Shown here one piece after another: positions 5,262-52,474 of a stretch of 64,000 bases of DNA. The notes beneath the pieces were generated by a model. That model did not search any database. It was not told the origin of the DNA and saw only the letters and a program-made list of their open reading frames with translations. Within the stretch, counting starts at the first letter, position 1. Each line of letters opens with the position of its first letter. A program made the position numbers and the translations under genes. Source of the stretch: Ancylostoma caninum (taxonomy: Eukaryota > Nematoda > Chromadorea > Rhabditida > Ancylostomatidae); the NCBI GenBank assembly GCA_037903475.1, contig JBAJFG010000004.1:248001-312000 (forward strand), read 5' to 3'.

Positions 5262-5815
5262 CGGCGGTGACTCAGTGGAGCGACCGTCGGTTTTCACGAT
5301 CCCGTGGGCAGTATTGTAGGCAAGCCTCTGTTTTAAAGGTTTCCTCCACGTAATCGTAATCTGCTGCAATGGCAGTTGCAGGGCGAGAAGTTCAGAAATA
5401 TTGCTTCTTACCGTTGTCCAAGATACAGACTTTTGTTGTGTCCGTAAAAATCTCGATGTTGAAGAAGCTACAGTTCACTAGAGAGATGAGCTACCGGTCG
5501 ACCGGTCATGGATATCTAATGCATATAATGATACAAAATGCAAGAGAAAGTACTCGTAATTAATCGAAATGTTCATGAGTTTGCCAAAATAAAGACTTTT
5601 TCAAACGAATCAGACTGTGCAGAAAGAATCCCCCGGGCAGGCATTGAACCTGGGAGCCACCATAAACGCGAGGTGCTTCCAAACTCAGGGTATAGTGGTG
5701 AACGAATCGCTCTGATTGGGGCAGTTCTAAGGAAGTTATAGCAAAGCGACGATGAGCGACGGTGACTCCGCGGAGAGCCCGTCGGTTTTCGCCGACCCGT
5801 GGACAGTATTGTAGC
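5262..5815 (+). repeat. Dispersed repeat, two plus-orientation copies
   Basis: Copies at about 5262-5325 and 5745-5815 share GGTGACTC, then a GTCGGTTTTC core, then CCCGTGG-CAGTATTGTAG. They match the minus-orientation copies near 3.1-3.3 kb. The sequence between them has no recognisable gene. Confidence 0.55.
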
Positions 5816-6527
5816 TGCTGCCGAGCGGCTCCAGCGACAGCTCACTAATAAATAAAATCCGGCTCTTTTGATAAGTCTGAATTTGTGGAACATGTCCACA
5901 TTTGTCTCAGCCACACAAACTAAGCAATGCCTAATCTCATCACTTCACCATCCACCATAAGTGATCTGCTGAACATTTCGTTGTATTGGTTGTTATAGAG
6001 ATTAGAGTAAATAGCGTCGCTTGTTATGCCCTGATCTGTAGCACTTCTCTTCAGAGTCCACTTCGCCTGCTTGTTCGACGTACGTGCTTCAATGGTTCAG
6101 TTATGCTCAGCCTGACTGCAACTATTTTCATAGACAGTTTCACAGACAGAAATCTCATTCAGGTTCTTGGACTATGCTCCTGTTCCAAGCACGTTTCACG
6201 ACCATCACCTGCTTCAATGTTAGAACTATTGGAAAACGGCAAAAGGTCTCTGAATGGTTCTAACCAAGAACTGCGTTTTGCTTCATGTCCTCAATGTCAA
6301 CTGCAAAGCCAGAAAAAGATAGAAATGACGTAAATCTTCCAGATTTCAAACAGCACAGGTCTTGCTCTTCATAATGATTCAACATTTGTCCACCTAACTC
6401 CTGAAATAGCGAAGCAATGGGTTTCCAAATGTTCATTACTAGGTTGAGGCCATTTCTTTGGAATAACCTAATATGTATGTGTGAAATGGAGGGAAATATT
6501 GTACTGTAGTTATTCCCAGCACTGACA
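5816..6527. other. No recognisable feature
   Basis: No domain, RNA or repeat structure was recognised. Confidence 0.4.
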
Positions 6528-9154: not shown

Positions 9155-10399
9155 TTAGGTTGTGCACAAATTAATTGCGTTTTTTGACGCGTAACTTTAA
9201 ACGTTCACAACTCGGCTCAAACTAAAGTTTATTAGATAAAATACGAAGCATTAGAATCTACGTATTTTTGCCAACGTTTCACAAGAACATAAATTCCCTT
9301 GCGGTAGAAGTCCGAACTTCTGGAGGCTATGAACTCGTTGAAGGCATTTTCAGCATCGGTCTGACTTTTGAATACTCTTCCCTTGATGAAGTTGTCGAGG
9401 TTCTTGAAGAAGTGATAATCGGTTGGCGAAAGGTCTGGTGAGTATGCCGGATGAGGCAGTACTTCGTAGCCAAGGTCCTTTAACTTCTGCAGCGTTTTTC
9501 TTGGCTATGAGGTCTGGCATTATCGTGGAGAAGAATCGGACCTTCTCTGTTCACCACTGCTGGGTTCGCATGCCAGTTTCTCATGCATTTTGTCTATTTG
9601 GTGGCAGTAGTTGTCCGCATTGATGGTTTCATCTGGTTTTAGGAACTCGTGATGTAAAATTCCTGCGTAATTCCACCAAACTGTGACCATAGTCTTCTTT
9701 TGGTGCAACTTCTGCTTCGGAAAAGTTTTGGGGGTCCATCTTTGTCCAACCACTGCGAAGAACGTTTCCGATTATTGTAAAGAATCCATTTCTCATCGCA
9801 GGTTACGACTCGATCAAGGAAAGGCTCGTTTTTGTTCCGTAAAAGCAGCTCCGATGAGATCTGATAACGCCTGAGCATCTGTTCAGCGTCCAATTCATGT
9901 GGCACCCACTGATCCATTTTCTTCACTTTTCCAATCTCTTCCAAACGCTTGGCGACGGTGGAAAATGATACTGGAAGATCTTCTGCTATCTCACGAACAG
10001 TTTTTTGTGGATCCGACTCCACCACAGACTTCAGGACGTTGTCGTCAAGTTCACGGATGCGACCTCGACCTGGTTCATCTTCAAGGCTCATGTTTCCTGA
10101 TCGGAATTTTCGGAACCAGAGTTGAGTGGTGCGAATTGAAGCGACATCTGCTCCCCATGCTTACACGATATTTTCGTGAGCCTCCACTGCTTTACGTCCA
10201 AGCTTGAACTCATGAAGCAAAATGATACGAACCAAGCCAATAGTGAGCTTCGAAACAAATGAACATCAAGAAATGAATGAGCGAAAGATAAGCTTCTAAA
10301 TGGTTTACAACATTGGGAACGTTACATGAACAATACACGAAAACCAGTAGGTCAAAAACTGGTTTGCAAAAAAACGCAATTAATTTGTACACAACATAA
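9155..10399 (-). mobile_element. Mariner element, bandit-like, full length but mutated
   Basis: The left end TTAGGTTGTGCACAAATTAA and the right end, in reverse complement TTATGTTGTGTACAAATTAA, are inverted repeats of about 31 bp. Each is bordered by TA (9153-9154, 10400-10401). The length of 1245 bp and a minus-strand transposase identify a mariner. Ends and coding similarity recall the hookworm element bandit; that match is from memory and would need an alignment. Frameshifts show it is inactive. Confidence 0.92.
9270..10215 (-). pseudogene. Mariner transposase with stop and two frameshifts
   Basis: Reading on the minus strand from about 10215, a helix-turn-helix region (FKLGRKAVEAHENIV, then an in-frame TAA, then AWGADVASIRTTQLWFRKF) leads into RELDDNVLKSVVES and the second helix-turn-helix. 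The first catalytic aspartate is in VVTCDEKWILYNNRKR. The frame shifts near 9745 and continues as KQKLHQKKTMVTVWWNYAG. It shifts back near 9560 to give the second aspartate in LLHDNARPHS (about 9527) and the third in HPAYSPDLSPTDYHFF. The motif order matches a mariner DD34D transposase of about 340 residues. All three catalytic residues survive; the frame does not. Confidence 0.9.
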
Positions 10400-42129: not shown

Positions 42130-43174
42130 GAATGTTTTTTCACTAATCTTTCCAAACATGGGAAGAGTTCGATTTACGAAGAAAAAGCACCTGCAATTCA
42201 CCTTGGCTGTTTTTATGTGGTTTGTTTGCTCTACCCCTGGTAGTTGAGGGCCTCATTGTAACGAATTCCTCAGGTTTCAAACCCCAATGCCCATAAAGCA
42301 CTTTGAGGAGCAAAAGGAGATCATTAACTTTCTTTCTTATGGAGAGCTTCTCTAAGCGAAAGTTCGCATTCCTTTCAGAACCTGAAGGTATCTGATCATA
42401 ATTGAAACCCAATGCCCTAATTTCTAGTTCCCTTGTAAAGTTATTTTGAACCTTCTCTATTTCGTCTATACTCTTTTTCTTGTATGGGTTATACACTGGA
42501 GTACCGTACTCTTAGATTGGTCTAACATAGGTTTTATAGGCCTTCGCCAACACTGCTATGTTTTGAGTTGATAGTGCCCTAAAAAGATTATTAACAACCG
42601 TCGCTGCCTTATTGGAAATTACTTCACAGTGAGCATCGAAGCTGAGGTCCTTGGTAACCAAAAATCCTGGATCTGTAATTTGTTCTACACTACTTATTGG
42701 TGAGTCCCCGACTGTATAGGTACGATTGCTAAAGCGGCAGCCTAATTGGAGCATTTTAGTCTTTTCTTTGGACAAAGGTAAGTCCCATTTTTGAGACCAC
42801 TTGACGGTTAAGTCAACCATGGCTTGAAGGAAAGCCCTATCACAATCGGAATTCATCGTGCTGTAGATTTTGAGGTCGTCAGCAAATGCATTGCATCCCA
42901 CGTTATGATCATAAAGCGTTCGGTGCAGATCGTACGTATAGAATGGAGAAAGAACGCCGTCCTGTGGAACGCCGCTAGAGACAGAAAAGGTCCTACAAGT
43001 AAGAAACGATCCAAGCCATGAAATAATTCGGGGATGAATTCCAACCACACCCAGCTTCTGCAAAAGTTTCTGGTGGAGTACTTTGTCAAAGGCTCTGGAA
43101 AAGTCAAAATAAACGACGTCAGTTTCCTTCCACTCTTCCATGTCTGTTGTCCATTCATTAAAGGCAGCACTCAC
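42130..43174 (-). pseudogene. CR1-like LINE reverse transcriptase, palm to C-terminus
   Basis: The minus-strand frame starts in the fingers (AAFNEWTTDMEEW). It then has the palm A box VVYFDFSRAFDKVLH, the B box SGVPQDGVLSP and the catalytic C box AFADDLKI, followed by the thumb (WDLPLSKEKTKMLQLG). An in-frame TAA at about 42511 interrupts TYVRPI-EYGTPVYNPY, and the same frame continues with VQNNFTRELEIRALG. Near 42185 the frame shifts and a short LINE-like tail (FFVNRTLPMFGKI) follows. Both catalytic aspartates are present, but the stop, the frameshift and the 5' truncation make this a pseudogene. Clade assignment (CR1/L3-like) is by motif style. Confidence 0.88.
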
Positions 43175-44571
43175 GCTGAAAAAAGTTTCTTCGCTTCTGT
43201 GCTAGTCCTAAGGGTCCCATCAATTGGAGTGTAACTGCCAAAGGAATCACTCCAAATCTTCCAGTTACTCGAGTTATTAAACTCGTACCCATGTTCAAAT
43301 TCGCCCACCTTGCTCAACCCCGCCCCATTCTCTCTGATCGTGCGCGGCGTGGTTATCTTTGATACGCTTAGGGCATGTTGCATTTGTCCGCTGGCGTATT
43401 GTACACCAATATTACAAACATATGTTTTGTGAGGCTCGCATGCCACTTTCTTCGTATTTCTCCGAGTTTGTTCATATTTTGTACATTTTTGAAGTTGGTA
43501 TGATTTACAGGCCATATCTTCAATAAATGTATCACATCTGAATCACGCGACTCTTGTTCGTTGTGTTATTCAACTGAGCTGTCCTCTGATTACCTATTTT
43601 CGAGAGTTTCTCACTGATGTAACTGAAAAGCTTCTTTGTTCAGATCCCGAAATTCTACCTCAACACATATGGGCAGCCCGCCAAATCCTCTTTGTGACTT
43701 TTGTGGGTTTGTTAATGGCAGCTGTTTTCGAACGGAGTACTTCACTCTGCGGAGAATTCGCTGTGGTGGTGACACAGTCCATTCCTTTGTTGTTTTTTCC
43801 GTCTCTAACCTAATTTTCATATCGGTGAGTCAGTTTATACTTTTCCAAAATGGACTCCAGCACTTTGCTTTCCCCTTCAGGCATGATGTCAAAGGTTTGA
43901 AGAACATGCGACTGTTTCGCCGATATTCACCTTGACAATTATTGTCAGCGTGCTCACTGTAATGTGCATGGCGATTTCGTTTCCTGTTACTCTGCTCACA
44001 AGGTTCCACTTGGATCCTGTCCTGCTTATCGAGTATGGGGTTTTGGCTTTCATTTGGAGGATTTTTGCTTCTTTGTGGACATATTCGAAAAGTTGCAAAG
44101 GTATGTTGGATTGTTGGATTGATTGAATTCTGACGTCTTTCTTATTTATTCGAAGTCGCGGGATACATCACTCGTTCTTTCATCGTTCTTTCATCCTTTA
44201 ACCGTTTCTTAGTGGCAAGCTAAGTGTTTTTTTGTGTTTTTGAGGCTGCTTATTTTAGTTAGAATATTATCGTTGCGGCCGAGTAGAGGCCGTTCTTTTT
44301 TCTCTAATTTCTTCATGTCTCCTTTGGTGAAACGAGATGTAAACTGCACCCGCTGCTTTGCAGTGTTTGCAGCATCGTGAGAAAATGAAGGGTTTATCAC
44401 GATTTGAAAGTTTGGCTTAGAGCCAGTGCTCTGATTCAGTACAGATTTCGTTTTATGACTATTAAAATAGCCTTTTGTGGCTCCTCTTTGTCGATAACAA
44501 ATTTTTGAAAGCTAGCATTGCCCGTTGATGCCTGTGGTCTTGTAGAAATGAGCGTACCGATTTGCGCAACG
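43175..44571. other. No supported gene; possible GRASP intron sequence
   Basis: Exons encoding the first PDZ domain of GRASP would be expected upstream on the plus strand, but none could be recognised here. A minus-strand frame at 43171-43515 has no known domain. Confidence 0.35.
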
Positions 44572-44663
44572 CGTCCGCGCCTTGCTGCTGCTACAGGAGG
44601 TGGTCATTGACCACGAGGACTTAGTAGCGTCCTGCAGATTCAGGGGGCTTAGCACCAATGTCC
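44572..44663 (-). repeat. GGTGGTCAATGACCACC-type repeat next to a GRASP exon
   Basis: This is an inverted copy of the repeat at 28441-28531 (AGGTGGTCATTGACCACGAG, then GACTTAGTAGCGTCCTGCAG). It ends about 20 bp before the acceptor of the first recognised GRASP exon and so lies in that intron or replaces its upstream part. Confidence 0.7.
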
Positions 44664-44683
44664 TTTCTTTTCTGCTTTTCCAG

Positions 44684-46837
44684 GCAAATGAGGGGAAACC
44701 CTTGAAGCTCTACGTGTATAATGTCGATACTGATGTTGTAAGAGAGGTAATTGTTTTATTCGGTAGTTTTCCCACCAAACGGAGTTCTACGGAATCGTAA
44801 TTGTGAATCAAAATTGTTCCAGGTCAGCTTAACACCAAACTCGGCTTGGGGAGGTGAAGGTTGCTTGGGATGCGATATTGGCTATGGTTATCTTCATAGG
44901 GTCTCCCATACCTCCACCGGTATGCACACGCTCTAGTCTCTACGTTTTTTCTTACTCTTTCGAACATCTCCAAATAATTTTCCCATATGTCCGCTAGGTC
45001 AAAGTGTTGATTCAAATTCATCAAGTTCCTCATAATTTTTGTCCAAAAACTTCAGGTCATTGCTACTCAGCCTGCGAAGTTGCCGCAGCCAGGCAATACA
45101 GGAATCCGACAGATTGACCAGGTATTATTGGCCTAAATAATTCCTACCTTTTTCCACACTATGTAATGTTTGAAATACATGGGCTCCACTTGGTTTCTGT
45201 ATTGAAAAAGTGATTACATTCTGAACTGTACATTCAACAGTGGTGAGAAGGCTATGGTATGTTTAAAATTTCAGGTGAGCAAGCCTCCGGCGCCATCTTC
45301 CTTCCCTGATCCGAGCCAGTTTGCTGCTCCTGTCAATATTCCACCACCAAGTAGCTTCGCTCCACCACCAGCGACGTTCCCTCCTGCTCCACCACCTGCC
45401 TTCACACCACAATCCACATCGACTCCAATGGTTCAGCCTCAGCCCTCTAACGGCTCTACCGATGGACATTCTCACACTCATGATGGTCATGGTCACAGCC
45501 ACAACCATGATAGCCACAGCCATTCACACACTCCATCTCCAGCGCCAGCTCCAGCACAGGCTTCCCAGGCTCCACAGCAGAGTGTAAGTTCATGTGTTCC
45601 TTTGACCTAGGCCTTCAACTTCCATGTTAAATAGGTTTTTTTCTGTTTTCATCGGAGTTTACCATAATTGTTGCAGTACCAATCTCCTCCAATGCCGCCC
45701 CAGCCAACTTCCAATGATTATTACACACAGCAGCAACAACAACAGCAACAACATCAGCATCAACAACAGCAACAACCCCAACAATATCAGGTGGAGACAT
45801 ATTTCTGACATCTTCTTACTGACACAGAGATGTTATGTAAGCACACATTTTCTTCAGATGTACCAGCCACCAGTTACTACCATGCCACAATATTCTGCAG
45901 CACAGCAAGTCACTGGAGTTCCATCTTCAGTGCCCTATACTTCTGCAGCGTATTCGATGCCACCTGCGACGAGGTTCGCTATTCTAGAAATTCTATTTTT
46001 TGTCAATTAATTATTTCTGTGCAGGCTGATTTTCCTAACCATAATTTTATTCTTGCCGGAAATGTACGAAGGAAGTCAAACGGTCATTTTCCATGTCTTG
46101 GATAACCATACCCGGCTTCGCTCGGGCGTTTCACTAATCCGGCTTTCTCACACTGATGAGGGCAATTGCCATTGCCGATAAATCCATTGCAAATGCCCAT
46201 AATTTTGGTCATGAGCATATTCGCGAGGCTAAAGTAACCTTTCTTCATATCAACCCTTCTTCCCACCGATTCGTAACCGAAACGTCAACAAAGATAGTTC
46301 GATGACGAAAAAGTTTCCATATTCGTACTTAGGAGTTTAGCGAGTTTGATTCATCCAGTATGTATAGTGTTTTCGATCTGCGGTAGCTTGCATGTGCACC
46401 GCCCACGCTTCGTCCGTATCGTTATCATTGTCTGCGCATCATAGCCACATCATAGCCAACCTTTACCTCTACCTATCAGTGACGTGTCTGGCTTGCTAGA
46501 GATAACTAAGAAAAGGAGAGGCTAGCGGTGTGGATGCAAGCCATCCCAGATCATACCTTCTTATCAGTCCCTTTCGAGAAGCGGGAAAAGATCAGAGGAA
46601 ATCACCGATCTTGCAATAATTGTTTATGCTTTATGCTTTCTTTCTTTCTTTTTTCTTGGAACCCTCTCTACCCTACTGATGAGCCCCGGAGAGGGTTTTT
46701 TTTTGTTTACAGTGATTTGGTGTCTAGGGTTTAGGGGCGAAACACCTGTTTTTTTCCGGGTGTGTTTTTTTTCTTTCAGGAATTCGATCGTGGAGCTCGC
46801 GAATGGAGAAGAAATTGTGAGGATGGAGTGCAGATGA
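44684..46837 (+). CDS. GRASP55/65 (Golgi reassembly-stacking protein) homologue, 3' part
   Basis: GRASP proteins tether Golgi cisternae through paired N-terminal PDZ-like domains and a Pro/Ser-rich tail. Exons I infer: 44684-44746, 44823-44900, 45056-45121, 45275-45583, 45677-45790, 45858-45973, 46780-46837 (stop TGA). The first two encode the end of the second PDZ domain ([40 protein letters not shown]), the family signature. The rest is a Pro-rich tail with a His-rich stretch ([19 protein letters not shown]) and a poly-Gln run. All junctions keep frame. The donor after exon 2 (GTCTCC) is non-consensus. The start and first PDZ domain were not found upstream. Nematodes have a single GRASP gene, so this is probably the orthologue of C. 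elegans grasp-1. Confidence 0.88.
46088..46235 (-). repeat. Helitron-like 3' block inside the last coding intron of GRASP
   Basis: Read on the minus strand it contains GGATTTATCGGCAATGGCAA, then CAGTGTGAGAAAGCCGG, then GTGAAACGCCCGAGCGAAGC. This matches 35315-35391 over about 90 bp. It is only the end of the element. Confidence 0.6.
46660..46763 (+). ncRNA. Hammerhead-like motif, permuted order, copy 1
   Basis: Boxes in order: ACCCTA (46670-46675), CTGATGAG (46676-46683), CCCC (46684-46687), GGTGTC (46719-46724), TAGGGT (46725-46730), GGGG (46734-46737), CGAAA (46738-46742), CACC (46743-46746). ACCCTA pairs with TAGGGT (stem I), GCCCC with GGGGC (stem II) and CACC with GGTG (stem III), giving a GUC cleavage site after 46724. 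All hammerhead core nucleotides are present, but the CUGAUGA strand precedes the substrate strand, making the fold a pseudoknot. An outer hairpin AACCCTCTC/GAGAGGGTT encloses the first part, and ACACCTG/CGGGTGT follows the last. Activity is untested. Confidence 0.5.
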
Positions 46838-46948
46838 GCAGGTATAATTCAATTCCATACTAATCCAGCGTGTGCAAGATTCTAGAGCACACTAAACATC
46901 TTTTTCTTTGTTTTATTATCACTTTTATCACATCATTAGCACTAGAGG

Positions 46949-47047
46949 GCCCTCCCTACCCTACTGATGAGCCCCGGGGAGGGCTTTTTTTGTTACAGTG
47001 ATTTAGTGTCTAGGGTTTAGGGGCGAAACACCTCGTTTCTCAGGTGT
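46949..47047 (+). ncRNA. Hammerhead-like motif, permuted order, copy 2
   Basis: Same layout as copy 1: an identical 20-nt loop TACCCTACTGATGAGCCCCG (46957-46976), then AGTGTC-TAGGGT-TTA-GGGG-CGAAAC (47005-47029). The enclosing hairpin is GCCCTCCC/GGGAGGGC instead of ACCCTCTC/GAGAGGGT, which means two compensatory base-pair changes relative to copy 1. The 3' hairpin is ACACCT/AGGTGT. Stem III is shorter here (CAC/GTG). The block ends at TTTCTTTCAG, a 3' splice site. Confidence 0.5.
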
Positions 47048-47061
47048 GGGTTTTCTTTCAG

Positions 47062-47118
47062 GAGTTTGTGATCGTTGTACATTGTAGCCGATGTTTGTTT
47101 AATAAACATTTTTTTTTG
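47062..47118 (+). other. Probable last (non-coding) exon and poly(A) signal of GRASP
   Basis: After the TGA at 46835-46837, a donor-like CAG|GTATAA (46841) and the acceptor TTTCTTTCAG (ending 47061) define a 3'-UTR intron. The exon that follows carries AATAAA at 47101-47106, and transcripts would end shortly after. Confidence 0.5.
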
Positions 47119-47213
47119 ATTGTATTGTTCATAGCCCATGTGAAAACACCAGAATACATGTGAAGTTTTGTTGCTAAACTAAAAACAAATAGGGTGGATG
47201 AGAACATGACAAC

Positions 47214-47223
47214 GAAATTGCAG
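47214..47223 (+). promoter_or_regulatory. Candidate trans-splice acceptor of the downstream gene
   Basis: GAAATTGCAG lies about 115 bp after the GRASP poly(A) signal and 22 bp before the next gene's ATG. This spacing is that of nematode operons, where downstream genes receive a spliced leader. Inference only. Confidence 0.3.
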
Positions 47224-47245
47224 CGTGTTTGAACAGGCCGTCATC

Positions 47246-50062
47246 ATGTCTCCCACTGCGCAATGCTGCTTTTGTGGAAAATATGTGAAGACAGCCGATA
47301 TGCGTTGGGCCCCTCAGTCAGGATTGCGACTTGCCGTATTGCTCAGCCCTTTCCTAGTCTTTGTTCCGACTCTGGTGGACGTTGTAAGGAAAACCTTCCA
47401 GACCAGCATACAGTCTAGGAAACGAATTTGCATTCAACACTTCGTGGAAGCAGTAAGAAATTCTACTAATTCTTCTTTATATACCGAGTACCCAGTAAAC
47501 ATTAGGCCCAACATCTGATCTCGGAAATGGCAGCAGCAGGCAAAGCGTTGTCCAGATTCAGTGATCCATGTCAAAATGGAAACACAGCTTATGTCAATGA
47601 AGGAGATCTGCCCTCACACATCGTTTCACGTATGAATGAGGAGTGGAGCGCTATTGATGTGTGATATCAGCCAAGATTTTTTTCATGTAGCCACTATGGT
47701 TGCTCTAGTATGTATCATTCTCAGGAGGCAGTGAGGATCGATGGAAGAGCTGTCACCAACTTCCTCAATGAATGCTTGCATAAGTATTCATCTGACCTGG
47801 GATGGTCTATCGTGTCTGTTGGAGCAGGTTTGGCTAGTGTACGCTCGGAAGTGAAGCCTGAAGAACAGCTTTTGCCTATGAAAGAGGTTACTGGACTAAA
47901 AATTTCACTTCTATTCGTTGTTCTTAGTTTGGCCTTCATGAGTAGAGTAGGGATTTCAGATGAAGAAAGAACCGGTACAAGCAACTGGCGAATGTGCAGA
48001 TGTAAGGCAGCGTGACATGAATAATAATGAGGCTGATAGCGAATCCGACCTTGAATGGATCGGTTCAGGGTGTCCTAGAAGTCGGCAATCACCAGATACT
48101 ATAATGGTTTGCCAGTGTTTGATAACCTCTATTTTGACAGTTTCATAAGTGATGGTTTAGGATGAGTCCCTCTTTTCTCCACGAACCATCACTCCAGAAG
48201 TGCCGCCCTATGTTAGGAAGGTAGGAGAAACCAAGGAAGAGCATCTCCGGCAGTACTTTTTGGTGGAAGGAGAGCAGCTTCTGCGTTTGTTCCGTTTTTG
48301 TCCCGAATGCGGGCATAAGTTGTCGAAGGTGGAGCTGACACCTGTTGGGACCGCACCTGTAGTCCGCTTCCTCTGTCCATCGTGCTCATTACGAGCACCG
48401 TACGTGAACAGATGGGAGGGACAGAAGCGAGCCGTTCATCACAGCCGTGAAAGGATGTTTAAAGGCAACCTGGAAGCTTGTGTGTCGCTGATTACCACGG
48501 GTGTTCGCTTTGTTGTGAGTAGTCCTCGAATTACGTATCATTGCCATCGACTCCTTCTCAACACATTTTCAGGAGCTGAACCGATTCGCGGAACAGATGC
48601 GCATGTCGCTCTTCAGCAGCACATTCTTCTGGAAGATATTTTCTATAGCTAAACCAGCTATAGAAACTGTTTACTGCCGACATGAGGACCATATAATGGA
48701 AGTCGTGCGCAGCCACTACGAGGTTTTCTTGCCATCCTGGTCATATTGCCATGCAATATGATTAATTTCGCTTCAGGGTGAAAGCGGACTTCAGTTGGCC
48801 GCGGATGGGGCTTACGACAGCAGAGGGTACTCGGCATTGATAGGGAAAGTGGTCCTCAGTGACACGCTGACCAAGCTCATCCTCCGCACCGAAGTGTTGC
48901 ATCGCTCTGAGACTGGTGAAAACGACATACTTCAGAAATACAGAGTTTCTTTCAGAGAGGCTATGTTGTAGATGGGATAAGTCAACGGATGGAAATCGAA
49001 GGCCTACGTCGCCTTCTGCGCTGGATTTCTGCCGAAGGGTTGACAGTAGCCTCGCTCACTACAGATCGCAGCAGATCTGTTGGGAAGCTTCTTAGGGAGA
49101 TGGAGGAGGAAACGGGGGTCATTCAACACTACTACGACGGATGGCACCTCGTGAAGTGGCTTGGAAACGAGCTTCTGAAGGTCATCTTGGATAGGTTCCG
49201 GCATTATGAAGGCTAAATATCTAATTTTAGGTGTCGAAAAAACGTGGTTGCGCTCCGGTTTCATGGTGGATAGAAAATACCAAAACCCACTGCTGGAACG
49301 CCATCGCCGTGGGAGCTCGTTCTCAGCTGGACATACCTCCTATATTCAACACATGCCTAATGCATGTTCGCGATGTTCATGAATGGCAAGAGGTGTCGAG
49401 ATTGTGGACATAATAGGTCATTTACTCGAGTTGAGTTTGTCAATTGATGAATTTAGGAGGACATCACGGGCCCGTATAACTGCTGTTCTCATGGCGAACT
49501 AGTGGGACCTCGGCCGGAAACGCTACCTCTGGACAGCGATGCGTATCAGGCATTTCGCAACATCGTTTTAACTAAGTCATTCCAGAGAGATTTAGCTAAG
49601 GCGAGCCCATATGGAGGTACATCTATATGCGAAACTAAACACGCTCTGGATCGGTTGTACTGCCGCAAAGAAATATTCTAGTGAGTGTTAATAGCTTCGA
49701 TGAGGTTTCATAGAAGCTTCATTGCTTTCATGTTTAGTCCAGTGTCCACCTACCACCTCTACGCGAAGCTAGCGACCATGCACATCAACACCTTACGATT
49801 AGCTGAGATGGCAGGTGAAAGGAACGTTTTGAGAGTGATGCAGATCCAGAGGAAGTACAACAGGAGGAAGTCTACCATCGTATTCAAGTCGCCCGTTCCA
49901 CATAAGTGGAGAGACGATGTTTTGGCTGAGGTATTAAGTGCTCGAATTAGGATGCTGGACGTGCATGAGGATTGCCTGGACACCGACCAACTGCCGGATG
50001 AAATCGGTGAAATGATGATGGCGGAGGAGGCATCAGAGTCCGGTTATAGTGTTGAGCTATAG
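47246..50062 (+). CDS. THAP-like finger plus DDE (DxxH) transposase, Kolobok-like, intact frame
   Basis: Inferred exons: 47246-47452, 47506-47658, 47725-47886, 47960-48106, 48161-48514, 48573-48722, 48777-48915, 48960-49180, 49231-49392, 49457-49680, 49738-50062. They join to 747 codons without a stop. Residues 7-65 form a C2CH finger (CCFC...CIQH), THAP-like or LIN-15B-like. A zinc ribbon uses C270, C273, C295 and C298. The catalytic core shows D401 (LAADGAYDSRGYS), D473 (TTDRSRSVG), the DGWH motif 497-500 (the C/DxxH signature shared by Kolobok, hAT, P and Mutator transposases) and E624 (TSICETKHALDRLY) as the likely third acid. The core layout matches THAP-linked transposase-like proteins of fish and cnidarians that I associate with Kolobok. 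It could be mobile or domesticated. Confidence 0.8.
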
Positions 50063-50289
50063 CATTGTAGTTTAGGATGTTATTGTTTCTTTTCTAACAT
50101 CTAACCATACGTGTTGCTAACAACTACATTAACACTGAAGACACGTACTAATAAACATATTATTAACATATTAGTAACATATTAACATATTATTAGAAAT
50201 CTACTTCTCTCCACTCCTCACCGTCTTCGTACTCGCATTCACGCGACGCCTGAATACATGCGGTCACATGCGGATAATTACGGGCTTCT

Positions 50290-51090
50290 TTAGAGTAATT
50301 TGTTCACCTGGAACCCCACGTAGTCACCACTCTGTGAGGGGTAAGCCTCCATAATTTTCTTGCGAACGCAAGCTGGAATTTCGAAACGTTTCGATAAGCC
50401 TAACCGTCCGTATGCCCATATAACAAACGACCTGTAGGCGTAGTACCGGAACGTTCTTAAAAAAGATAATCTACTAATGCCTTTTTAGCTTTTACACCAA
50501 ACAACTTGCCTATTTTCATCTTTTAAGGTCTTCCGTTTGCTACTATACTCATATTTCTTGTTTTCCACCCATATAGACAGAACCTGAAGCTTGTATCGAA
50601 AACCAAAGAAAAAACCCGATCTTTACCCGAAAGTCTCACCTCGCGATCCAGTACTACCTTTCCAAAAGACGGGTGATCGGTGATGCACTTAGCTGGACAT
50701 TCTTTTAGTTTCACTGCTAAACTGTCCATTACATCTGCTCCCAACTGAGTGCCATCACCTCGGAGTCCGTCGGCGAAGCCTTCCCGACAACAGACATTCT
50801 CCCTCACTGTGGGTAGGTTCCCGCACGCCCCGCAAACACACCAATTGGTGTTTTCAAGTCTGCCATGGTCCAGTGTCTTTCCGAGAAGACGGCAGTAACT
50901 AAACCTATCATAAAAATATTTTGAAGACAATTAAAACTATCATATCGAACCTGAGGTCCCGATCAGGGTTCCTCTCCACTTGGCTGATGTTCATTCTTCT
51001 CATCGAAGATAACACAGCATCGCTATCGGGATTGCCAATAGGCACAGGACATGGCACTCTCGCTCTGCTCATTTCTATTAAAAATGGCAT
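50290..51090 (-). CDS. P2X7-ballast-like cysteine-rich protein, convergent with the transposase
   Basis: Three inferred minus-strand exons: 51090-50951, 50904-50627 and 50480-50290, giving about 202 residues. Residues 65-88 read NTNWCVCGACGNLPTVREN then VCCRE, and 116-125 CPAKCITDHP; these are the cysteine/histidine zinc-binding signature of the P2X7 receptor cytoplasmic ballast domain. Exon 3 supplies the family C-terminus (FRYYAYRSFVIWAYGRLG, IPACVRKKIMEAYPSQSG). No channel part is present. Stand-alone ballast-domain proteins occur in invertebrate genomes, often as multicopy genes near transposons. The second intron's acceptor (AAAAAG) is weak, so its boundary is uncertain. Only 227 bp separate its stop from that of the transposase. 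Confidence 0.72.
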
Positions 51091-51769
51091 AATTTAATGC
51101 AAGCAATGGATGTTTTAAGCTTCTCGCCGACTCCGAAGCGGGGGTGGCGGGCGACGCGAGCGGAGATAACAGATGCCCCGCACACTTCGGAATCTGTTAG
51201 AAGCCTTTGATAACACTAATATTTGCAACGATGTGTCACGATGTCGTGGTAAGATAAGAAAGAGGTTATGAAAAAAAGAACACTCATGATAACGATTAGA
51301 TTATGATTAGATTTCTGTGAAGTGTGCGGAGATCAGAGTACGTCAGTATTTACTAAACAATAGTATGAAAGTATGAGGTTTTTTCAAAGACATAATCCAT
51401 TTTATAGACATAATTCTGCTTGAATTCAAAAAACTGGGGCAAAAGTGTGAAAAAAGAAGAAGTCTACTCTTTATGTTTATGCCGAGGGGTTAGCATGTGA
51501 ATATGAATAAGAGTGCGCTGAAATAAATGCTCCGTTTGTTGAAAATTGCCTCGAGAAGCATGCAAATATGGCTGAGATTGCGCCGGCTATGTTTATCAGC
51601 TGATACGGCATCGATCAGGATTTTCCGATAACGGTGATCCGTGCCGCACCTCGGCGGCCACACCCATCTACGGCAATAGATCTCGTCCGAATGGCCTCGT
51701 CTAGGCAATATACAACTTGGTAATTCTCGGAAACTTGACCCTTTCAGATGGTTTCTTCTCTAGTAAGGG
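51091..51769. other. No recognisable feature
   Basis: Upstream side of the ballast-like gene, which may hold its promoter. No terminal inverted repeat matching the left side near 47.1 kb was found. Confidence 0.35.
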
Positions 51770-52474
51770 CACAACTATACCCTCAAGAGTCGAATTTCAT
51801 GAAAAAGTCGATGACGTTTTTTATCGTGAGTGCTGTCTTTAAGGCCACGAATCATAGCTGTTACTGTCGATTTCCCCTTTTGAAAACCGTGTTGACTCAG
51901 TGAGATGACAGAATTTTCTTCAAGGTGGGCAACAATTCGCTTTTCTAGAATTTTTTCGAACAGACGAGAAAAAAATTGATGTAATGCTAACTGGTCTGTA
52001 ATTCGAAGGTACCGTCGAAAGGGATTTCTTCAGAATTGGTGTAACATAGGAAGGTTTCCACATAGTAGGTACTTCTGACCTCATAAAACTTAAATTGAAT
52101 ATGTATTCTAAGGGCAAGGCAATAATGTCCGAAATCTTTTTGATGAAATCTAGACGCACGCCATCAGGAGTAATGGATCGAGACGCAGGCCATTGTAAAA
52201 GTAGAGTGAGTATTTCTTCCCTATAGAACCAAACAGAATCTTCCATAACAGGTGAAGTAAGATCCGACGAGAGATATGGTGGGTGGCGGTCAAGACGTAC
52301 GCCGCGACGCGACAGCGCCACAAGCACACGCTTTTTAAGTTCAGGTTGTTTCTTCGAATTCGACGCACTAAATGACATCGGTGGCCACCTTCTCACAGTT
52401 TGCGGGTTCCGAAAACACTCATCTGTCCCAATAAAGCTTAGAAACGTTGTCCATATCCACGCAGAACTGCTCAT
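51770..52474 (-). pseudogene. CR1-like LINE reverse transcriptase, N-terminal fragment
   Basis: From 52474 downward the frame reads a pre-RT linker, then SITPDGVRLDFIKKI, ALPLEYIFNLSF, WKPSYVTPILKK and SNYRPVSITSIF, the fingers of a CR1/jockey-type reverse transcriptase. Around 51965 the frame shifts to LFEKILEKRIVAHLEENS, then SQHGFQKGKSTVTAMIRGL. A second shift near 51810 is needed to read a palm A-box remnant (DFFMKFDS). A stop follows and the rest is missing. It is an inactive copy, distinct from the one at 42.1-43.2 kb. Confidence 0.85.

Follow-up and report, generated by a model that had tools for sequence, protein, structure and literature searches.

Putative type-CSG hammerhead ribozymes carried by a Kolobok DNA transposon in a nematode genome

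Why would a DNA transposon, which needs no RNA processing to move, retain ribozymes? The question is raised by a 64,000-nucleotide stretch of nematode DNA (hereafter the window), in which a first-pass annotation had described two hammerhead cores with their parts permuted and pseudoknotted. That description is borne out here, with all core nucleotides and stems I to III located in both copies. We consider it likely, at a probability of roughly 80%, that the two are cis-acting hammerhead ribozymes of type CSG and belong to a genome-wide family that resides in the Kolobok DNA transposons of a nematode with the SL1 leader, cleavage being judged from sequence likeness. The transposon carrier and the dozens of genomic relatives lie beyond what the annotation had seen.

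Results

Two permuted hammerhead cores in tandem

A block scan of the sequence gave the extent of both copies and their individual blocks and strands; the cleavage sites are predicted by homology with type CSG (PMC10085705).

46660-46746, + strand: ribozyme copy 1, type-CSG order; 109.2 bits under covariance model R1, a score that is not independent, as both window copies are in the alignment behind the model
46660-46669 with 46688-46697, + strand: copy 1 I-II clamp helix, enclosing block C
46670-46675, + strand: copy 1 stem I strand Ib, ACCCUA
46676-46682, + strand: copy 1 CUGAUGA
46683-46687, + strand: copy 1 stem II strand IIa, GCCCC
46719-46723, + strand: copy 1 stem III strand IIIb, GGUGU
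46724, + strand: copy 1 C17
46724/46725, + strand: copy 1 predicted cleavage site, following C17
46725-46730, + strand: copy 1 stem I strand Ia, UAGGGU
46731-46733, + strand: copy 1 bridge, UUA
46734-46738, + strand: copy 1 stem II strand IIb, GGGGC
46739-46741, + strand: copy 1 GAA
46742-46746, + strand: copy 1 stem III strand IIIa, ACACC
46948-47032, + strand: ribozyme copy 2; 102 bits under model R1, likewise not independent
46948-46957 with 46976-46985, + strand: copy 2 clamp arms
46958-46963 and 47011-47016, + strand: copy 2 stem I, Ib and Ia
46964-46970, + strand: copy 2 CUGAUGA
46971-46975 and 47020-47024, + strand: copy 2 stem II, IIa and IIb
47005-47009 and 47028-47032, + strand: copy 2 stem III, IIIb and IIIa
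47010, + strand: copy 2 C17
47010/47011, + strand: predicted cleavage site of copy 2
47017-47019, + strand: copy 2 bridge, UUA
47025-47027, + strand: copy 2 GAA
46742-46763, + strand: hairpin competing with stem III, pairing the ACACC strand (46742-46748) with 46757-46763

The blocks run in the order C-S-G in both copies, and the three strands come together in the core through crossing pairs. All invariant hammerhead nucleotides are present, and each copy has CUGANGA, GAA, the pairs G10.1-C11.1 and A15.1-U16.1, and H at position 17. Stem I has 6 bp and stem II 5 bp in both copies, while stem III has 5 bp in copy 1 and 4 bp in copy 2, where it is shorter by one pair, as the annotation had noted. 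Its permuted order with a UUA bridge also holds up, agreeing with type CSG in block order, core and clamp helix and with type SGC in the bridge; the canonical types I, II and III (orders SCG, GSC and CGS, non-crossing) are not found within one copy. In the folded RNA, strand C would be clamped by the helix of about 10 pairs that joins both ends of the CUGAUGA block, strands S and G, linked by UUA, would come next, and all three would cross-pair into the core. Cleavage is predicted after C17 (46724 and 47010) by homology with type CSG and would leave a 2',3'-cyclic phosphate and a 5'-OH.

The hairpin at 46742-46763 is locally stronger than the stem III duplex (-9.4 versus -5.2 kcal/mol) and may act as an off-switch or be a fold of the product. 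For copy 2, the minimum-energy fold of 46944-47070, computed among nested folds only, prefers another structure in which the drawn clamp is lost. Both results count against the ribozyme reading. The linker between clamp and stem III (46698-46718 and 46986-47004) contains ACAGTGATTT, identical in both window copies and unpaired in the model.

A strict scan of the window in any block order returned only the two copies, block sets mixed between them and one weaker set reusing copy 1 blocks. When the window was shuffled 600 times with dinucleotides preserved, 326 matches combined a complete core with stems of 3 bp or more, all six block orders being allowed, and 8 of the 326 reached at least 16 total stem pairs, as against the two window copies with 16 and 15, in a count that takes neither the short bridge nor the clamp helix into account. 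The window copies differ from each other in 1 of 46 core columns, compared with 11 substitutions in 80 columns and 14 gap columns outside the core (Fisher p = 3e-4 for core versus non-core). A chance origin is rejected by the window shuffles together with the genomic relatives and the covariation statistics described below.

No Rfam family reached its gathering score in the window, and around the site a search up to E 5 gave four matches, none of them a hammerhead, at E 0.5-1.6 and far below the cut-offs. A loose pattern matched 12 stretches in viral_contigs, none with stems I and II, and tighter patterns matched nothing in viral_contigs or genome_contigs. A box C/D snoRNA seems unlikely: CUGAUGAG resembles box C, but no box D was seen by eye.

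A genomic family with covarying helices

The genome from which the window comes (638 contigs, 348 Mb) was searched at the DNA level with three queries, and all counts from these searches are lower bounds. With copy 1 as the query the best 40 of 49 candidates were scored, with the second query the best 40 of 72 (eight at new places), and with the third all 20 of 20 (one new place), giving at least 49 places in the genome, the two window copies and a near-identical pair on contig C169 included. Once exact duplicates were removed, such as the C169 copies that match the window letter for letter, 31 copies remained; a 29-row alignment omits two chance matches (L023:2155 and L030:2921) and the degraded L035:1852 and adds L043. 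The covariance model built from these 29 copies was found in all 16 newly fetched places, which had been preselected by DNA similarity. The 47-row alignment used below consists of 48 model matches minus L073, which is the same as L044 (46 are distinct); it retains the degraded copies L042, L035:1852 and L029:1325, and the ends of L034:1171 and L043:1497 differ slightly from the model match.

Standard pairs fill 91.2% of the 1190 pair cells in the 47 copies. Double-sided changes occur at 13 of 26 pairs, in 55 cells, of which a few stem from degraded copies and which are not independent events because the copies are related by descent. No shuffle out of 500 came up to even one of five pairing measures, counts that are not probabilities because many copies share descent, and slid controls were at most 61.7% paired. 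By helix, double changes affect 2 of 6 pairs in stem I, 3 of 5 in stem II, 1 of 5 in stem III and 7 of 10 in the clamp. Stem I varies little among the copies, with A-U replaced by G-C in five (two of them core-broken) and C-G by U-A in one, while one stem II pair changes from C-G to U-A in 19 copies and the outer pair of stem III has G-C in place of U-A in four cases. Covariation among these related copies supports stems I, II and III and the I-II helix. The compensatory changes that the annotation had seen between the flanking hairpins of the window copies are real: they are the paired differences between the two clamps, and among the genomic copies, too, this helix shows compensated variation.

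A conserved RNA structure need not cleave, and the family might instead represent, say, an element next to a 3' splice site that serves in binding or in the control of splicing. This reading draws on the conserved structure, to which cleavage is added by inference, and on a splice-site signal near 28 of the 47 copies (see below). Set against it, the unpaired core positions are among the best conserved: the nine invariant ones and a non-G at position 17 are intact in 38 of the 47 copies and broken in nine, and position 7, which is free in hammerheads, differs in three copies that are each otherwise intact. Furthermore, two loop segments and the downstream strand, as read from the sequence, pair in parallel rather than antiparallel, and a parallel strand order makes one continuous kissing duplex impossible. 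We regard a non-cleaving element as very unlikely.

Self-contained cleavage has a second competitor in the annotation's own fallback, in which block S of one tandem copy pairs with C and G of the other to restore canonical orders. The strands are interchangeable, as the mixed block sets from the scans illustrate, and vertebrate retrozyme hammerheads are described as needing dimeric action for higher rates (PMC7229834). However, 14 of the 20 fetched regions (7.2-9.9 kb each) contain one copy, and 9 of those 14 copies have all nine invariant core positions. Self-contained permuted ribozymes are, moreover, characterised by the clamp helix and the 3-nt S-to-G bridge, and the bridge argues against a dimer because so short a link matters only when one copy folds by itself. 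We likewise regard the dimer as very unlikely.

Further close pairs occur in L045, L046, L050, L057 and L058. L050 (G000:C179) holds four ribozyme matches, two on the + strand (1572-1664 and 1864-1957) and two on the - strand (5694-5788 and 6043-6134), in pairs that face each other, and at L055 8140-8414 an intact ribozyme (- strand) and a degraded one (+ strand) lie 90 nt apart. Minus-strand matches of a fuzzy pattern near 3.0-3.3 kb in L049 and L055 proved false and are not inverted ribozymes.

The putative ribozymes lie inside a Kol0-like transposon

The window copies fall within a larger mobile element, listed here with its genes and with another transposase fragment from elsewhere in the window.

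43158-51842, + strand: Kolobok (Kol0-like) DNA transposon carrying the ribozymes, 8.7 kb, with TTAA at 43158-43161 and 51839-51842
44669-44903, + strand: GRASP55/65 gene piece, inside the transposon and upstream of the ribozymes
47246-50059, + strand: transposase gene pieces, ATG at 47246, with N-terminal Lin-15B-like (THAP-like) and Mutator-like Pfam matches
50308-50858, - strand: KolX-like gene (P2RX7_C, PF20478)
9642-10160, - strand: Mariner-like transposase fragment with a Mos1-type HTH, below the Pfam cut-off

The transposon termini, AGGCAGCACTCACG...GTGAGTGCTGTCT, form aligned inverted repeats that adjoin TTAA. In-silico excision of 43158-51842 leaves a single TTAA and rejoins a flanking LINE reverse-transcriptase frame, and the same right end is followed by other flanks after TTAA in L045, L046 and L047. 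Position 46609 had been taken as the left end; this was wrong, as it is an internal junction, and in L045 the sequence left of it differs from the window. Kol0 Koloboks are described by TTAA, 5'-RR/YY-3' termini and a P2X7-like KolX protein (PMC9587614, PMC6004289). The element has the TTAA target duplication and RR/YY termini, and PF20478 scores above its cut-off both in the window and in L054; the carrier is assigned to Kol0 Kolobok because of these three marks. As to the DDE transposase with a THAP-like domain that a Kolobok should also have, the matches (PF25375 and PF20700) are weak and below cut-off, and a protein search with a transposase piece gave no match.

A second copy of the element, in L046 (G000:C169:145600-155500), is 99.985% identical over 45136-51845, where 45136 is the start of the fetched piece, and has a different right flank; it reflects a recent transposition or duplication. 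The GRASP55/65 piece is a probable gene capture, and its protein search returned only two unnamed short proteins. Three short elements, each about 430 bp long and with ends of the TTAAAGGCAGCAC type (L049 3227-3656, L055 7206-7640 and L063 363-795), are probably Kolobok-family MITEs.

The carrier bears on a retrozyme-like reading, in which paired copies would release the 286-nt unit between their cuts (46725-47010) for ligation into a circle. That spacing is near the units of about 300 bp reported for metazoan non-LTR retrozymes (PMC7229834), and the other close pairs fit it as well. Yet most fetched regions have one copy, the homology between the window copies extends over about 125 bp rather than the whole unit, and the element moves as DNA with a TTAA duplication, which together leave the circle improbable.

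Candidate splice and poly(A) signals downstream of the putative ribozymes

The nearest recognised transposon gene downstream of the ribozyme is in sense in 13 of the 20 fetched regions. By tblastn the transposase lies sense-downstream in 11 (L045, L046, L047, L048, L049, L052, L053, L058, L061, L062 and L064), at distances of 0.3 to 3.3 kb and in some as the N-terminal piece only. L054 and L056 have a KolX-like gene sense-downstream, with an antisense transposase beyond it, and the remaining seven (L050, L051, L055, L057, L059, L060 and L063) are without such a gene assignment. In the window, four signals lie between the copies and the transposase start or between the copies themselves.

46774-46779, + strand: TTTCAG, likely 3' splice site, ending 55 nt past the predicted copy 1 cut
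47056-47061, + strand: TTTCAG, likely 3' splice site, ending 51 nt past the predicted copy 2 cut
47101-47106, + strand: AATAAA, between ribozyme and transposase start in 6 of 6 aligned family-1 elements
47218-47223, + strand: TTGCAG, likely acceptor 22 nt before the transposase ATG (47246), in 6 of 6 aligned family-1 elements

T[TC]CAG occurs 40-90 nt past the predicted cut in 28 of the 47 copies, whereas nine control stretches gave 2-10 of 29-42; in this comparison the pattern was picked after inspecting the copies, and the counts, from related copies, are not independent. Of the 28, 24 have it at 47-59 nt. Clustering of the downstream flanks into independent groups gave four clusters, one with 44 of the 47 copies, and one of the 30 rows in an earlier splice-signal tally (L056, minus) was a false match. 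The pattern is absent at 40-90 nt in the other 19 copies, which weakens the idea of an acceptor after every copy. Among them is a subfamily (L065, L066, L074, L075, L077 and L078) with no T[TC]CAG in that interval and AATAAA 100-120 nt past the cut.

The poly(A) signals point to what we consider the main rival for the role of the ribozymes, namely that they sit close to where a transcription unit upstream of them ends, so that cleavage would strip the poly(A) tail and restrain expression. AATAAA stands 60-260 nt past the cut in 12 of 32 copies, eight control stretches having it in 1-6 of 27-32, and both the six family-1 elements and the six copies of the acceptor-less subfamily carry it. The enrichment is gone once further poly(A) signals are admitted (16 of 32 versus 4-16 of 27-32 in controls), no + strand Pfam domain lies within 1.2-1.6 kb upstream in L045, L048 or L058, and wherever a gene is recognised the nearest one is downstream and in sense. 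We judge a 3'-end role possible but rather unlikely.

Discussion

The most likely role of these ribozymes, which we propose tentatively and at odds clearly short of even, is processing of the transposon transcript. Since the predicted cut falls some 50 nt ahead of a 3' splice site, with the transposase or KolX gene further downstream, it would split upstream RNA from the transposon message; RNA of captured or host-derived origin would be severed from the transposase or KolX message, and the released downstream piece could gain a new cap by SL trans-splicing in a nematode. Some 50 nt of AU-rich outron is enough for SL trans-splicing. A synthetic outron has been reported to turn a pre-mRNA into an SL1 substrate (PMC5737717). 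The genome contains 29 exact copies of the SL1 leader followed by GGTAA, and none of a reversed-pattern control, in agreement with a nematode host. Counting against a processing role are the published type-CSG rates, perhaps slower than splicing, and the order ribozyme, acceptor, AATAAA, TTGCAG in all six aligned family-1 elements, in which a poly(A) signal and a second acceptor precede the transposase ATG and which suits a 3'-end role as well. Also to be set against the overall reading are the 19 copies that lack T[TC]CAG at 40-90 nt, the antisense transposase in L054 and L056, and the nine copies with a broken core.

More speculatively still, an acceptor-linked ribozyme might free the transposon message from any transcript into which the element has landed, SL trans-splicing then recapping it for expression from any host promoter, an idea that we hold as rather doubtful. 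If true, it would give ribozymes a role in DNA transposons and place a ribozyme in direct partnership with trans-splicing.

Several known systems share parts of this arrangement. Among the papers listed by literature searches, titles and abstract openings gave no account of hammerheads in a DNA transposon like this one and no further work on type CSG beyond PMC10085705. Metazoan non-LTR retrozymes (PMC7229834) likewise have tandem hammerheads about 300 bp apart in animal genomes, but those are type I hammerheads of a retroelement, whereas the ribozymes here are permuted, often single and carried by a TTAA DNA transposon. Described Kol0 Koloboks (PMC9587614, PMC6004289) share with the carrier the TTAA duplication, the 5'-RR/YY-3' termini and a KolX related to the P2X7 ballast; the carrier differs in holding ribozymes, a word absent from the main text of PMC9587614. 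Type SGC (HRIMA-1, PMC10085705) resembles the window copies in a I-II bridge of typically three nucleotides, a clamp helix and a strongly conserved stem I, but has block C last rather than first and comes from metatranscriptomes.

The closest relative is type CSG itself, a non-circular permutation published in 2023 (Eckert et al., PMC10085705) for two natural sequences known from metagenomic DNA only, which cleave in vitro at the predicted sites at 0.004 and 0.026 per min and whose biological relevance was rated there as less well evidenced than that of type SGC. As described, it shares with the window copies the C-S-G order, the core nucleotides, the crossing stems I to III and a helix that brings stems I and II together. 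The topology was already known; what is added here, as far as titles and abstract openings tell, is an animal as host, a DNA transposon as carrier, a large number of covarying copies and an association with splice signals, which follow 28 of 47 copies here, in difference from the published pair. In place of two metagenomic sequences, type CSG now has dozens of copies in an animal, carried by a mobile element and with compensatory changes in each of the helices, so that its activity, its evolution and what it is for can be tested in a living animal.
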